From: a bacterium
Lineage (GTDB): Bacteria; Bdellovibrionota; FAC87; UBA2466
Assembly (NCBI GenBank): GCA_009927045.1
Contig: RFNT01000093.1
Span: 1 to 55,319, forward strand
Length of the DNA stretch: 55,319 bases
Direction of reading: 5' to 3'
The notes beneath the pieces are model-generated. The model had not been told where the DNA came from, did no database searches, and saw only the letters and a program-made list of their open reading frames with translations. This document shows positions 70 through 7,500 of the stretch, one piece after another; position 1 is the stretch's first letter; each line of letters opens with the position of its first letter. The position numbers and the translations under genes were made by a program.

Positions 70-1320
70 TTGAGCAATCCTTCCACCATACTGCTCATGA
101 ACTGAATACCAAAAGCTAAAGTTTCTTCAGCGTCCGGATAGTACTCCGGGAGTGGAGGGAAGGGAGCTTCCCTTGGAGCTTAGTTTAGAAAGGCGTTTCT
201 CTGATACAGAACCTAAAAAAAGTAAAACGGCAGGAATTCCAGAATCTCCATACACACTGAAATCTTCGCTGACCGTTGCTGGTTTACTAGGTATCAGGAC
301 CTTTTTCCCAAATTGTTTCTCGAGAATATCAATTACTTTCTGAGTGAGCTGAGGATCATTGAAAGTGGCTCCTGTCCCTTCTTTAGAGAACTCGACAGTG
401 GGTTTTGGCGCCCCTGAACTCAGGGCGCTTGCCTCAGCTTTTCGACGAATCCCCTCTAAGAGCCGCTTTCGCTCTGTTTTGTCAAAACTTCTCACGGTCA
501 ATTCAAGCTGACAGGATTCAGGAGTGATATTGTGTTTAGTGCCACATTGGAACTTACCCACTGAAATTACCGAGGGCTCAGTAGGTTCACGTTCACGAGA
601 TATCAAAGTTTGGAGATCCATCACAAAACGAGAAGCAATGACAATGGGATCAATATTTTCCTGAGGAAGTGCCCCATGTCCTCCTTTGCCGCGGATGACA
701 ACGTCCACAGAATCTGCTGCAGCCATGACTGGACCCGAAACATACCCCAAAGTTCCGGTTGGCAAATGTGAATCCACATGAAAAGCAATCGCATAATCAG
801 GCTTCGGAAATTTTTTGAGAAGTCCCGCTGCAATCATATTTTTTGCTCCGCGCCCCACTTCCTCAGCAGGTTGTCCAATCGCAATTAATGTGCCTCGCCA
901 TTTCTGCTTATTCTTTATAAGAAGGCGGACCGTGCCTACTAGATTGGTCATGTGAATGTCATGGCCACAGGCATGCATGACGCCGGTTTTTTTCGAAGCA
1001 AACGCGAGCGCAGTATTCTCAGTGATTGGAAGTGCATCTAAATCCGCCCGAAGTAGCACCGTTTTGCCAGGACCATTCTGAAACACTCCAACAACTCCCG
1101 TGCCAGCGAATGGAAATGTAACTTTCATGCCTTCTTTTTCAAGAGATTGGGCGAGTAGGCTTCCGGTCTGTTCCTCTTTCAATGAAAGTTCAGGGTTTTG
1201 ATGGAACTGATGGTAAAGGGGCAGGAGTTCTTTCGAAGCGATAGCAGCTTCTGAGGACAAGCTCTGCATCTGTCCCAAGGAGTTGAACCCAAAAAAGATA
1301 AAGAAAAGAAAGATCACCAT
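66..1320 (-). CDS. M20 family amidohydrolase/peptidase, exported, interrupted by a frameshift near the 3' end
   Basis: Metal-dependent hydrolase of the M20D amidohydrolase group (hippurate hydrolase/IAA-amino acid hydrolase type), which cleaves N-acyl or peptide amide bonds. A hydrophobic N-terminus (about residues 1-17) looks like a signal peptide, so it probably acts in the periplasm. Visible motifs are the LRADLDALPI strand, the MHACGHDIHM metal site, the EE pair in GQPAEEVGRGA, and the dimerisation-domain GGHGALPQ. The open frame ends at 127 with a non-homologous tail. The +1 frame across about 146-180 instead reads PEYYPDAEETLAFGIQFM and ends at TGA 68-66, which is the expected M20 C-terminus and overlaps the next ATG. 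The start ATG at 1320 overlaps the stop of the upstream Cys-repeat gene by 7 bases, so the two are probably co-transcribed. The exact substrate is unknown. Confidence 0.85.
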
Positions 1321-1871
1321 CTAGGGCTACAACCTAATTCGTATCCATTGGGGACATATTCATTAACGCAAGTCACTCGATTACAATCAAAAACATGATT
1401 CATTGAAACATAGGCGACTTGACAATACTGAGCAGTACACCCGAGCTGATAGCCTGGTCGGACATAGTAAGCGGTACATTGATAATCCGTGCATCCGAGT
1501 TGATATCCTTTTCTTAAATAGTACTGTTGGCAGGATTCAGTAGTGCATCCCCAAACATAGCCTGCTTGATAAGATAGCGCTCGACATCCGGACTCAGTAC
1601 ATCCCAGGACCGTTCCCGGTGGTACATAGTATTGCTGGCAGCTCTGGCTGGTGCAACCGACTTGATAATTGAGCCGAAGGGGCATCACCTGGCAAGCAGC
1701 ACGATTACAAGCCAGTTGATACCCGTAAGGCACATAATACCTCGAACATGCTGAAGCAGTGCAGCCGAGCTGATAGCCATTGGGAATGTATATTTTTTCA
1801 CAAACATCACCTCGACCTAAGGATGAAATCCCCAAATAAAAAATAGATAGATAAAAGATGAAATTTCGCAT
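1314..1871 (-). CDS. Secreted protein built of 18-residue CX4C repeats, function unknown
   Basis: A 185-residue protein with an N-terminal hydrophobic segment (residues 1-19) typical of a signal peptide. The mature part is almost entirely a tandem repeat of exactly 18 residues. Eight full units follow one another without gaps, flanked by a partial unit at each end. Examples are CTTESCQQYYLRKGYQLG and CTDYQCTAYYVRPGYQLG. The pattern is C-[TN]-x3-C-x4-[YV]-x3-[GN]-[YTH]-x-[LVWF]-[GAD], so every unit has two Cys four residues apart. The regular Cys pairs and export suggest a disulfide-stapled or metal-binding solenoid on the outside of the cell; this is inference. I do not recognise the family. 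No Shine-Dalgarno lies just before the ATG at 1871; a hairpin with a T run does (separate entry). The gene overlaps the M20 gene by 7 bases. Confidence 0.85.
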   Translation of the reverse strand: MRNFIFYLSIFYLGISSLGRGDVCEKIYIPNGYQLGCTASACSRYYVPYGYQLACNRAACQVMPLRLNYQVGCTSQSCQQYYVPPGTVLGCTESGCRALSYQAGYVWGCTTESCQQYYLRKGYQLGCTDYQCTAYYVRPGYQLGCTAQYCQVAYVSMNHVFDCNRVTCVNEYVPNGYELGCSPRW

Positions 1872-1872
1872 G

Positions 1873-1921
1873 AAAAAACTGTAACAAAAGAACCTTCTAA
1901 ATCCAATCTTTCAGTTACAGT
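1873..1921 (-). terminator. Hairpin plus T run between thiamine-binding gene and Cys-repeat gene
   Basis: On the minus strand an 8-bp inverted repeat (ACTGTAAC and GTTACAGT) with an inner A/T-rich stem is followed by six T. It begins at the stop codon of the upstream gene and its T run ends one base before the ATG of the Cys-repeat gene. It has the form of an intrinsic terminator. The only SD-like string, AGAAGG, lies in the hairpin loop, so the element may also act as an attenuator or translational switch. Confidence 0.7.
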
Positions 1922-2199
1922 TGGCTTTCTACAGAACTCACCATTTCCGAGAGGGATTGAGCGGTGGTCAATCGACTGTCCAGAGTGATTGTCATGATAA
2001 CCCGGTCATGACTGTGGGCAAGTTTCTCAAAGCATTTACGCAGCGCTAAGAAGACCTGATCAGGGTGTCCTTCAATGGACGTACTCATGGGGCCCACTTG
2101 GTACTGCACCTGACATTTTTTTACTTCTGACAGTGCAGTGGCGACTGCTGAGCTCAAGTGATGTTGATTTAATGGTAAAACAGAAAATTCAGCAAGCAT
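1915..2199 (-). CDS. Thiamine-binding protein, YkoF/MTH1187 (DUF77) family
   Basis: A small cytosolic protein (94 residues) of the ferredoxin-like-fold family that includes MTH1187 and the HMP/thiamine-binding YkoF. The family signature is seen as MLAEFSVLPL at the start, then QYQVGPMSTSIEG, a helix with VFLALRKCFE, and the closing strand RVIMTITLDSR. Members bind thiamine or related pyrimidines and form tetramers; the physiological role is poorly known. A GTG at 2208 would add three residues, but it overlaps the GAGGAG Shine-Dalgarno (2208-2213), so the ATG at 2199 with an 8-base spacer is chosen. That Shine-Dalgarno is buried in a hairpin. No TPP riboswitch motif was seen upstream; the upstream DNA is the group II intron-like RNA. 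Confidence 0.75.
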   Translation of the reverse strand: MLAEFSVLPLNQHHLSSAVATALSEVKKCQVQYQVGPMSTSIEGHPDQVFLALRKCFEKLAHSHDRVIMTITLDSRLTTAQSLSEMVSSVESQL

Positions 2200-2203
2200 A
2201 TAA

Positions 2204-2228
2204 TCCACTCCTCAGGTGAGGAGGTGGA
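2204..2228 (-). promoter_or_regulatory. Hairpin that sequesters the Shine-Dalgarno of the thiamine-binding gene
   Basis: On the minus strand TCCACCTCCTCA and TGAGGAGTGGA pair over 11 bases with one bulged C and a two-base loop. The right arm holds GAGGAG, the ribosome-binding site for the ATG at 2199. Folding would hide the site, so expression may depend on an event that opens it, such as transcription read-through or splicing of the upstream RNA. Confidence 0.5.
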
Positions 2229-2246
2229 GCGTCGAAATGCTGCAAG

Positions 2247-3057
2247 ATAAACTTTTAGCACGATCGACACACCCACCGACTTACCTGCTCAACCGTACGT
2301 TGGGTTTTCCCCAGTACGGCTAGAAAGGCTGGCTCATCAAATGAAAGCATTCCTCAGTAAAGTTTCGGATTAAGCCTACTTCCGGCATGCTCCGAATCCA
2401 AACTCAGTTGGCTTTCGTTCTCACACCTCCCGTACATCAGAGGTGGTGCCACACGAACAACTTTCGTTGTTTTACCTCTGAGATCCTCGCTCAGCTCTGC
2501 TTTTTGTATTCAGAGCCTCTCAGCTTATCGATCTCATCTGCCCTACTCTTAACCATGAATGAGAAGTCTCATCCATTGCTCCTACATAAGCTCAGAGCGG
2601 TTAAAAGCAGTTCCGCGCTTTTGTAACTCCTTCTTTATTGACCTATCGCCCTCTCAGTATGAACTCGGGTTTGGGGCCCCATCCAGTTGCCATGGTTCCC
2701 AATAATAGCCTTCGTCCGGCTTGATCAGACTCGGCACCCATTCCCAAACGATGAACTTCGATCCACCCCTTGGGGAACTGTTCAAACCTCACTGAGGTTT
2801 GCTTTCGCTGCAATCGACCAACTTGCAAGTCATCTTCTCGAAGTCACTCCTCGGACAGTAACCTGTTCGAGGAGTCGATGACTTTTTCGGTCAGCTTCCG
2901 TAAGTGGCATTGCTGCCCCTTACGCTAACTATCGCTACAGCCGCATCTGGACAATTCGGCTGGTGAGATTTTCACTCACAAGAAAGTGCTACTTGCGTCG
3001 CTACCTTCAAGCACGTTTATTCAGGATTGCACTTACAATGCCAAAGTTTTTTCGCAC
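2247..3057 (-). mobile_element. Group II intron-like ribozyme without an encoded protein (ends approximate)
   Basis: About 810 bases on the minus strand have no credible reading frame but dense RNA structure. The 5' end carries GTGCG (3057-3053), the usual first bases of bacterial group II introns. Near the 3' end lies a hairpin with the domain V pattern AGCCGTAC ... GTACGGTT, in which AGC pairs with GTT, followed by a distal GGG/CCC stem with an A-rich loop and a 2-base bulge (2290-2322). In between are long perfect stems, for example ACTCCTCG/CGAGGAGT (2846-2875), TCAGAGGT/ACCTCTGA (2437-2481) enclosing a GAAA-capped hairpin (2456-2471), and a domain I-like GTGAGTGAAAATCTCAC hairpin. No maturase/reverse transcriptase ORF is present, so any mobility or splicing would need a protein in trans. 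It sits between cls and the thiamine-binding gene, in the same direction. The 3' end is estimated from an A-rich stretch and is uncertain by tens of bases. Confidence 0.72.
2290..2322 (-). ncRNA. Group II intron domain V hairpin
   Basis: Catalytic-core hairpin. The outer helix AGCCGTAC/GTACGGTT includes the catalytic triad AGC paired to GTT. A 2-base bulge (AC) on the 3' strand and a distal TGGG/CCCA stem closed by an A-rich loop match the known domain V layout of 34 or so nucleotides. This is the strongest single signal for the intron call. Confidence 0.75.
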
Positions 3058-3118: not shown

Positions 3119-4535
3119 TTAGAGGAGAGGTGCGATCAATCGAAACAGCCTTGCTTCACACGAACTAAAAAAGTCTGATCTTTGAAATTGCTGAGCAAAA
3201 TAGCTTCAGCATGATTTCGACGCTGGGAAAACATTTGTTCTAAGGAAACCACCTCTGATTTACCAAAGACAAGGTCGTACATTCAAAGTTGAGTCGGAAA
3301 CTTCGTTCATCCATGTTAGCAGATCCAATCATCGCCACCTCAGAATCAATGGTAACTTGTTTCGCATGAATAAAAGATTCAGTAGTTTCCCAGATTGAAA
3401 CACCTCCTTGCAGAAGATTCCAGTACCAGCTCTTTGAAGCGGCATCTACCAACCAGAGATCCGATTTTCTTGGGACTAAAATTTCAACCTGAACGCCGCG
3501 CCGTACTGCGGCTTCCAGCGAAATTGCTATGGATTCTGTGGGTATAAAATAGGGGCTAAGCAAAGTGATTCTATGTTGGGCAGCGTGAATCAATGCCATG
3601 AGAATCTTCTCAAAAGCATGAGAAGGCTCATCAGGTCCCGTGGGAAGAAATTGAACGACAGATTGTCCCACCTGGGAGTTAGCGATGAGAGCATCTTCCA
3701 CTGATTTCACCTTGTGCCCTGTGGTGAATTCCCAATCTTCACAAAAGACCGTGGCTAACTGCGATACACTGGGACCTTCAATCAACACTTGGTTATCAAT
3801 CCAATCTAATTTTAAAAGCCTCCAAGCTCTAAAATCAGAGCAAATATTTTGACTGCCCGTGAAGGCCTGAACGCCATCTATCAGTGCTAATTTTCTATGA
3901 TTTCTGAGCTGGAATCCCCATGGCCGTTTGAGAGTGAGTGCACCAAAAAATGCGACTTGTGCCCCGGAATCCAGCAAAGGCTGCAGAAATTTGGTATTGA
4001 GTGAGAAAGACCCCACTTGATCCACGAGTATTTTAACCTCTAATCCCTGCTGAGCTTTTTGAATCAATAAATCTCTGAAGTGAACGCCTACAGCATCAGG
4101 TCTGAAGATATAGTATTCCAAGAAGATACTTTTTTTTGCACCTTCAATAGCTTGGGAAAGGGCTTGATAAATAGTCTCCTGGCCTTCAAAAAACTGGAGT
4201 CGATTTCCTCCCACAGGGGGAAAACCCGACAAGTTTTCTGCAAGTTGAGAAACGGGTAAAAAACGGGGCTCTAATTCGCCTAATGTGGAACGCATGAGAA
4301 AACCAGTTTCCGGAAGTTTTCTTTGCGGTTCCGGTTTGGGTCTTTTTCTCCGTTTGAAATCGGAATAGCCCACTAACGAGTAGAGGAGGGGGCCAAAAAT
4401 GGGGAGGAGAAAAAAGCTCAAAATCCAGGACCAAGTAGTGGCGGGTGATCCTTTCCGACGACTCAAAACCAAAAGAGTAAACACAAGACCCAATCCAATA
4501 CTGAGTTGATTAAAAACACTCCAAAAAGAATTCAT
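3119..4535 (-). CDS. cls: Cardiolipin synthase (phospholipase D family), frameshifted near the 3' end
   Basis: Inner-membrane enzyme that joins two phosphatidylglycerol molecules into cardiolipin. Two N-terminal membrane segments (within roughly residues 1-65) precede two phospholipase D domains. The HKD motifs appear as NHRKLALIDG in the first and IHAKQVTIDSEVAMIGSANMDERS in the second. The open frame stops at 3240 after a foreign tail. From about 3262-3290 the neighbouring frame reads LVFGKSEVVSLEQMF and continues to RLIAPLL and TAA 3121-3119, the typical CLS C-terminus. Adding one base at the GG of 3273-3274 restores a full-length protein. An ATG at 4535 lies 4 bases after the metH stop, which suggests an operon with metH; a longer reading upstream to 4640 would run inside metH and is not preferred. 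Confidence 0.85.
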
Positions 4536-4539
4536 AACT

Positions 4540-7500
4540 TCAGGGATCAAGTCTTGGGTTAACGGGAACCTCATCCATCGTGACCACTCCCGTAGAAAAA
4601 TAAGAGGCTTGGGGATGATGAAAAACCAGAGCAGAGACACTTGCCTCAGGATCCATCATGAAACCATCGGTGAGTTGAACTCCTGCTTGCTCCGGCCGGA
4701 GCATTTCAAAGAGTGTTTTTTGGTCTTCCAGGCGCGGGCAAGCCGGGTATCCAAAGGAGTACCTTTTTCCATGGTATTTGGCTTGAAAACGTTCCAACAT
4801 GGTCGTCTTCAGAGGATCAGGGAAACCCCACATAGCTCTGAGCTGGGCATGGATCAGTTCGGCGTAAGCCTCCGCAGATTCCAAAGCGAGCACTTGCAGG
4901 ATGTGAGATTTAAGGTACTCCCCCTGTGATTTAAACTGTTCAGCCAGATCTCTCACACCCACTCCAACCGTGGTGACGAACGCAGCCACGTTATCACTCA
5001 AGTCCGCGGCCGTAGGCTTAGCAATGGTAGGCCTTACATAGTCCGCGATACACAAACCATCCTTCTTCGGTTGCCTTGGAAAATCAAAGTGTAACACTTT
5101 GGAGGAACCATTGGTGCCTGCTGCTACAAAGAGCCGATTACCAAAAGAACCTGCTGGAAAAAAACCATAAACAGCAGAAGGCTGCATCAGAGGGGTGTGT
5201 CGATAAGTATCACGGAGTTCCTGAACCGCTTTGAATACATTGGCTGCTCGAGGGTCTTTTTCCTCGATGAACTTCAGAAGTCTTGGATCGGTCTCCACTT
5301 TTTCTAGTTCCCGAGCTATCGGACCTCTGAGCCCTAAATGTCTTCCGTAAACCATCATGGGATTTACAAAACGCCAAATATGATCAATGGGGGTGCTTCT
5401 AAGCACTCGCAATCCAAAATGAGGTGGCAAAGGCGGAGATTCAATCATTTGAATCAGAGCGCTTCGCTCAAAAGTAGCTTGCTCCGGCGATTTGTGAACT
5501 GCAGGGGCCTGATTGAGTTTTTCTTCTTTCTGCTGAAGGTCTCGTTTAAGTTGTTCAAAGGCGGTCGGATTGACAACTTTTTTGGCGAGTTCCAGACCAT
5601 TCATGGCATCGGAAGCATAGACTGCAGTACCTGCATAGGCTGGGGCTATTTGCTTGATCACGAAGTTCTCAGAAAGTGCGGCTCCACCCACCAGCAGAGG
5701 AATCTGAATGCCTGCACGACTCAAATCTGCTGCAGTTAAAACCATTTGTTGTGCAGATTTAACCAAGAGCCCCGATAAACCAATCATGTCTGGCTGATGT
5801 TCCTTGACCGCAGCGACGAGCTGTTCAGGTGGAATTTTGATGCCTAGATTGATCACCTTGAAGCCATTGTTACTCAGAATGATATCCACTAGATTTTTTC
5901 CAATATCGTGAACATCTCCCTTCACGGTGGCTAGGATCACTTTTCCACGGGTTGAATTATCAGTTTTTTCCATGAAAGGTTCCAAATAAGAAACTGCCGC
6001 TTTCATGGCCTCAGCGGATTGGAGCACTTCCGCAACAATGAGTTGATTGGAATTAAAGAGGCGCCCCACCTCATCCATTCCTTTCATGAGGGGGCCGTTG
6101 ATAATTTCCAAAGGCTTCAAGGTTTGGAGTGCTAAGGCCAAGTCTTCCACTAAGCCGTCTTTAGAACCCTCAATAATGTAACGTGGAAGGCGTTCTAAGA
6201 GCGGGAGAGTCGTTTTATCTTTCTTGGGCAGTGCCTTACGCTTTCGGAAATAAGCTGCAAAAGCACCTACCGGATCCGCTCCACGATTGTAGAGTAAGTC
6301 TTCCGCTAATTGGCGTTCATTCTCTGGGATGCTGGCATACCTCTCGAGTTTTTCTGAATTGACTATAGCGAGATCAAGTCCCGCTTGGACGCAGAGATAG
6401 AGAAATACAGAATTCAAAACTTCTCTGCCGGCGCTGGGGAGTCCAAAACTGACATTTGAAATCCCAAGAATAGTTTTTGTCTTGGGGAAGTGTTGCTTTA
6501 GAAGGCGGACCCCTTCAATCGTTTCAACTGCTGAACCCACATACTGTGCATCTCCCGTGGCACAGGGAAACACCAAGGGATCCCAAATAATATCCTCAGG
6601 AGCTAACCCATATTTTTCAGTGAGGAGTTGATATTCTTTAGTCGCGATTTCCAATTTTCTCTGTCGAGAAACTCCCATCCCCTGTTGAGGATCGTCATCG
6701 ATAGTCCCTACCACTACAGCTGCGCCAAACTGTTTGATCAACGGAAGTACTTTTTCAAAACGTTCTTCACCATCTTCCAAATTAATGGAATTGATGATCG
6801 CTTTTCCTTGAGAGTAAGTGAGAGCCATACCGATCACTTTTTCATCGGTAGAATCGATCATGAGGGGAGCTCTTACTTTTTTTGAAGCGAGCTCTAAGAA
6901 AGAACGCATATCCGACATCTCATCTCGATCGGGATTAGCCAAACAAATATCTACGATATGGGCACCACTCTTGATCTGTGCTTTGGCAATATCAGAAGCT
7001 TCATCAAACTTATTTTGACAGATCAAATCCTTAAATTTCTTACTCCCGATGACATTAGTCCGTTCACCCACGATAAAAGGACGTTGATTCTCTGAAAGCT
7101 CTAAAAAATCTATTCCCGAAACTGCGGAAATAGATTGTCTCGAAAAAATCCTCGGGGAATGCTGTTCGGCCAGTTGAGCCAATGCTTGAATGTGATGGGC
7201 GGTAGTGCCACAGCAACCGCCTAACAAATTTACCCAACCTTGTTGGACAAAATGAGCAATCGCTCGAGATAAAATTTCTGGGGTTTCCAAATAGTTTCCA
7301 TTTTCATCGGGTAGTCCCGCATTTGGCACACAGGAAACTGGAAAGGGAGAGAGCTGTGCCAAAGACCGGATGTGATCCGTCATGAACTCAGGGCCCGTGG
7401 CGCAATTGAGGCCTAAATAAAGGAGCTCTCGATGGGCAACCGAAGTGAGGAGCGCTTCCACACTTTGTCCTGCTAACATGGTTCCCATGGGTTCAATCGT

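Follow-up and report, generated by a model that had tools for sequence, protein, structure and literature searches.

A protein-less group II intron-derived RNA behind a sigma-54-type promoter box in the Bdellovibrionota

The Bdellovibrionota are relatives of predatory bacteria. In a 55,319-nucleotide stretch of DNA from one of them—the whole of which we call the window—a group II intron-like RNA without a protein gene lies between a cardiolipin synthase-like gene (cls) and a gene for a thiamine-binding protein. The spliceosomal RNAs are believed to descend from group II introns, and the question raised by this locus is what such an RNA is when it carries no protein of its own. The preliminary description offered two answers: that its own protein was lost and one encoded elsewhere is needed instead, or that it is a domesticated structured RNA.

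The RNA was found to be of group II type, on the minus strand, by an Rfam match together with a domain V hairpin. RF02003 (group-II-D1D4-4) matches at 2981-2803, inside domain I (D1), with 58.9 bits (cut-off 49; E = 1.9e-10 in the window), so the RNA belongs to this family by score; the model spans only a 138-position segment and also matches true introns with a reverse transcriptase. No other Rfam family reaches its cut-off within the window. The proposed check with covariance models thus succeeded for RF02003 and failed for the domain V/VI model RF00029, which has no match in the genome, nor on a 1.5-kb stretch even at E = 10. The domain V (D5) hairpin, previously placed at 2290-2322, was recovered at 2321-2291 (AGCCGUACUGGGGAAAACCCAACGUACGGUU). 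The absence of a protein gene was also borne out: the longest sense open reading frame (ORF) is 61 aa in the window and 37 aa in the nearest relative, and the longest sense ORFs differ from relative to relative. When other copies were looked for, the element proved to be single-copy within its genome.

The extent first given, 2247-3057, required correction. Including its promoter box, the group II intron-derived RNA occupies 3044-2213 of the minus strand, the promoter lying at 3044-3028 and the predicted RNA at about 3017-2213; the predicted transcription start is 12 nt past the -12 element, and position 2213 is the 3' end of domain VI (D6). The features of the locus are as follows.

3240-4640, minus strand: upstream gene, cardiolipin synthase-like, with a PLD/HKD motif (HAKQVTIDSEVAMIGSANMD) read from the sequence; orthologous in G002 and G001.
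3028-3044, minus strand: putative sigma-54 (RpoN) -24/-12 promoter, TTGGCATTGTAAGTGCA, GG-N10-GC, by consensus match.
2213-3017, minus strand: group II intron-derived noncoding RNA, a block kept in genus relatives with covariation in the family; ends predicted.
2614-3004, minus strand: domain I, approximate, by homology to the fold of eight relatives and from the fold of f1 members.
2541-2612, minus strand: domain II, approximate, by homology to the eight-relative fold.
2480-2535, minus strand: domain III, GAGAUC...GAUCUC, by homology to the relatives' fold.
2323-2479, minus strand: domain IV, without any ORF, from the ORF list and the relatives' fold.
2291-2321, minus strand: domain V, with an AGC triad and a GGGGAAAACCC tip, by pattern search and by our covariance model R1 (115.5 bits over 2289-2414).
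2213-2287, minus strand: domain VI-like hairpin with no recognisable branch site or intron 3' end, by alignment, fold and motif search.
2208-2223, minus strand: alternative hairpin CUCCUC-ACCU-GAGGAG, read from the sequence.
1915-2199, minus strand: downstream gene, MTH1187/YqgV-type thiamine-binding protein (PF01910, E = 2.9e-19); its orthologue adjoins the RNA in G002 and G001.

In an alignment fold of eight members of one family the six-domain wheel is present in canonical order (alignment columns: D1 23-380, D2 381-513, D3 518-595, D4 597-777, D5 779-811, D6 823-878). Two-sided covariation is seen at 121 of its 245 pairs compared with 50 in shuffles—none of 500 shuffles reaches 121—and the signal is destroyed by sliding the pair partners. 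The window copy and its own family share the same six-domain plan by homology with these eight relatives, whose D5 is near textbook form (GAGCUGUUCUGGGGAAAUCCCAAUGGGCAGUUC). The D5 triad is AGC in the window copy and UGC, CGC or AAC in some members; in the family f9 the catalytic AGC is partly replaced by CGC or AAC, and G304 has lost D5 while D1-D4 are kept, together with a terminator hairpin with nine U (locus L145, RNA at 6110-5270, minus strand).

The wider family was assembled by searches with RF02003, a D5 pattern and R1 (built on the end of domain IV plus D5), which yielded 48 loci in 35 Bdellovibrionota genomes, leaving aside the G001 copy, which is divided by a contig break. R1 alone has matches in 38 of 369 genomes and 21 of 182 genera of the phylum, with two to five matches in some genomes; the data are mostly MAGs, and presence within the phylum is patchy. 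Both other species of the genus (G002 and G001) carry the element at the same site between cls and the thiamine-binding gene. Alignments with them (75% and 69% identity) start at window position 3044-3045, and the spacer upstream, unlike this conserved block, is not alignable between species. Every member with inspected surroundings lies between genes; a plasmid blastn search gave no match to the element, and viral contigs gave none to the D5 pattern. A tree of RNA members and introns, built on too few columns, gave a p-AU of 0.25 for the grouping of all the RNAs in a single clade, which it neither established nor rejected.

Two features that define group II introns, a 5' GUGYG and a D6 branch-site A with an AY 3' end, are not conserved in this family, and it is for this reason that we file the RNA as a group II derivative rather than an intron. 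The GTGCG at 3058-3054, originally taken as the 5' end, is conserved in none of the relatives, the two other species of the genus included, and was rejected as a 5' splice site on this ground. It lies 10 nt upstream of the sigma-54 promoter and outside the predicted transcript. Elsewhere in the family GTGYG is scattered, with no fixed position. The intron 3'-end/branch-site motif is present in 2 of 48 members, both times outside the D6 stem, whereas in other phyla 28 of 35 related RNAs have it. In another phylum, all eight readable matches have the intron 3'-end motif and none has a sigma-54 box. An intrinsic terminator (hairpin plus U-run) follows D5 in 28 of the 48 members versus 2.7 in shuffles. 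As a universal feature of the family the terminator was rejected, given this count and the window copy, which has no U-run terminator and whose RNA extends as far as the ribosome-binding site of the gene that follows; the terminator is also missing in G002 and in the g6 copies. Another candidate, a conserved hairpin at the 5' end that would shut off the splice site, seems convincing in some clades and is unsupported by the family-wide alignment.

A maturase elsewhere in the genome, on which the first of the two answers depends, did not materialise: no reverse transcriptase (RVT_1) was found in the 95%-complete genome (G000) or in four further carriers (G001, G002, G009 and G027). The reverse transcriptase or maturase of a mobile retroelement was found neither in cis, D4 being without an ORF, nor elsewhere in these genomes. 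Because no reverse transcriptase was found, because the splice ends are unconserved and because a promoter and often a terminator stand in their place, the protein-dependent intron is disfavoured, and domestication is the better of the two answers.

The conserved 5' block of the family is TTGGCAYN5TGCW, of the sigma-54 -24/-12 type, and its distance to D1 is nearly fixed in most members. The window box agrees with YTGGCACG-N4-TTGCW at 11 of 12 positions, a match equalled in none of 200 shuffles. Outside f9 the box is present at 29 of 31 loci (the two without it are G292 and G304) versus none of the 17 loci within f9. Paralogues at different loci of one genome also carry it, so that the box is a property of the RNA rather than of the locus. 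The gene rpoN is present in the window genome and single-copy in all 16 genomes tested; with -24 GG, -12 GC and 10-nt spacing, the locus can be classed as a predicted sigma-54-dependent unit. Both the sigma-54 and the terminator counts take related loci as separate and so overstate the number of independent events, and it is the contrast between families and between phyla, not the raw counts, that carries the argument. No conserved dyads that might form an activator site were found upstream of the box. The motif TTGTCNC or its complement occurs in 11 of 28 upstream regions of sigma-54-type members (200 nt before the -24 box; 2.7 expected), mostly 45-77 nt upstream; picked post hoc, it is suggestive of an activator site.

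The genes just downstream, assigned by Pfam, appear to be mostly stress genes. Hsp20 is immediately downstream in G183a, G209, G208 and G325 and is the second gene in G324; a CBS-domain gene occupies this position in G182, G183b, G093a, G093c and G109. FtsH follows in G327b, a sigma-54 activator in G308, and archease and then RtcB in G094b and, by sequence similarity, in G093b. Other downstream genes encode PEP carboxylase (G128), SDR (G292, G324) and carboxyl transferase (G056). Typical stress genes are not seen beside the window copy, whose neighbours are cls, the thiamine-binding gene and a peptidase gene. G210, G027b and G056b show no clear gene on the same strand immediately downstream, and there the RNA must therefore act on its own. 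The archease-RtcB loci (L155:6358-8440 in G094; L157:3500-6220 in G093) have an RNA member directly before these two genes, with CBS and DnaK-like genes divergent, and these sites may connect a group II-derived RNA with an RNA ligase.

Taken together, the sequences support group II ancestry, the fold, the family, the promoter box, the terminators, the lost splice motifs, the lack of reverse transcriptase in five carriers and the neighbours. The RNA is probably a domesticated stand-alone noncoding RNA of group II descent, driven by sigma-54, non-splicing and acting mainly as RNA in stress. As we propose it, sigma-54 RNA polymerase, activated by an enhancer-binding activator, would start about 12 nt past the -12 element (near 3017), and the transcript would fold into the group II core of domains I-V. 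Domain VI would have no branch site and in most relatives would have been turned into, or replaced by, an intrinsic terminator; with the branch site lost, the RNA should neither splice nor move. It would be made together with stress genes, usually just before them (Hsp20, CBS, FtsH, archease-RtcB and others), and its main action would be that of an independent RNA in a stress response under sigma-54 control; read-through would also contribute to expression of the gene that follows. Transcription from the promoter, the loss of splicing and the stress role are the parts of this scheme that we infer. Against domestication stand the AGC triad kept in the window D5 though dispensable for a purely structural RNA, the 17 f9 loci plus G292 and G304 without a sigma-54 box, the patchy distribution, the window copy without a terminator, and the neighbours of that copy. 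If the proposal is true, nature has here made a cellular RNA out of a group II RNA, with the core fold kept through many genera, a promoter in place of the splice sites and, in many members, a terminator as well. It would also open a way into the control of stress by RNA in a phylum that has been little studied, and such RNAs are missed by searches keyed to reverse transcriptase or to RF00029.

Whether the RNA acts in its own right or on the gene that follows it is the closest of the choices to be made. A cis-acting leader or very large attenuator, whose fold and terminator respond to stress (from heat, ions, a ligand or stalled transcription) and set the level of read-through, would account for the position of the RNA, at most loci 40-330 nt ahead of a gene on the same strand, for a terminator placed between RNA and gene, and for paralogues that precede different stress genes within a single genome (in G183, Hsp20 and CBS in tandem). 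The window hairpin CUCCUC/GAGGAG overlaps the Shine-Dalgarno sequence of the thiamine-binding gene and could mask it; this hairpin is intact in the window genome, but in G002 it is altered and in G001 disrupted. Such a leader is a reading that we take seriously and yet hold to be doubtful: the three members without a clear downstream gene do not fit it, the whole 800-nt fold is kept while the downstream gene changes among genera, and the terminator is absent in the window copy, G002 and the g6 copies. We lean, by a little, towards an RNA acting in its own right, as a trans-acting ribonucleoprotein, over a pure leader. A more specific version, a catalytic RNA that is induced by sigma-54 under stress and cleaves or remodels target RNAs through the D1 exon-binding loops and D5 without splicing itself, seems unlikely. 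It would have kept those loops and, in part of the family range, a working D5 (AGC triad, G-U wobble), and such a role is conceivable because a group II intron that has been excised can act on mRNA via its exon-binding loops (PMC6003770). If this version is true, the RNA would have met a spliceosomal-RNA-like fate within bacteria.

The presence of a six-domain core with D5 and its AGC triad would also suit an ORF-less group II intron, inherited vertically, that still splices by RNA catalysis alone or with a host factor, perhaps at shifted sites. ORF-less introns with intact ends occur in other phyla, and the literature records both shifted splice sites (C. tetani C.te.I1) and one ORF-less bacterial intron that is independent (PMC4424553). 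We nevertheless consider continued splicing quite improbable, given the unconserved GUGYG, the missing branch site and AY end, and the intergenic position of the members; moreover, the predicted transcript of sigma-54 members starts about 12-15 nt before D1 and often terminates at D6, so that there is hardly an exon to ligate. The loss of splice sites and protein and of D5 in G304, and the altered triad (AAC) of some f9 members, could instead mark a dead, decaying intron copy without function. That reading we regard as very improbable in view of the extensive compensatory change, the 75% identity across species beside an unalignable upstream spacer, the gain of promoter and terminators, and genus-wide synteny.

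Among known systems, ORF-less bacterial group II introns are described in a review as rare, short-lived and almost always found in genomes with a related maturase (PMC4424553). The RNA resembles C.te.I1 and the cyanobacterial and archaeal ORF-less introns in having a D1-D6 core without an intron-encoded protein; it differs from them in its unconserved GUGYG and branch site/AY end, in being bounded by a sigma-54 promoter and often a terminator, and in the lack of reverse transcriptase. Circularly permuted group II RNAs are likewise large ORF-less bacterial noncoding RNAs made from group II domains, but have the order D5-D6-D1-D4, self-splice and make RNA circles (PMC8637638), whereas here the order is D1-D2-D3-D4-D5-D6 and the splice sites are missing, which places the RNA outside that class. 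With the sigma-54/RtcR-controlled rtcBA RNA-repair operon (PMC7790460, PMC9879122) there is sigma-54 and RtcB in common, and archease-rtcB directly follows the RNA in G093 and G094; however, those copies belong to f9 and have no sigma-54 box, and most members precede other genes. OLE and similar large ornate bacterial RNAs are alike in being long, highly structured and noncoding. The B. bacteriovorus transcriptome paper names no group II-related RNA (PMC3627812), and a sigma-54-driven, terminator-ended group II RNA was not found described in the literature searched, which lay largely outside subscription journals.

Several further observations were made. In a set of carriers apart from G000, G001, G002, G009 and G027, all eight tested have reverse transcriptases elsewhere in the genome. 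At L053:2529-4171 (minus strand) two ORF-less group II copies are arranged head to tail, so that one copy's 3' end (CTCTACCCGAC) directly abuts the 5' end of the next (GTGCAGCGAG). The f9 copies L153, L203, L204, L206, L207, L209 and L212 have no sigma-54 box and a D5 triad of AAC, and several of them have upstream a GGCGATAC-like sequence reminiscent of FliA/sigma-28 promoters, which are known in Bdellovibrio (PMC3627812). Finally, window positions 1314-1871 (minus strand) encode a 185-aa protein with Cys-containing repeats GYQLGCT..C..YYVP.GY, which is 67% conserved in both genus relatives.
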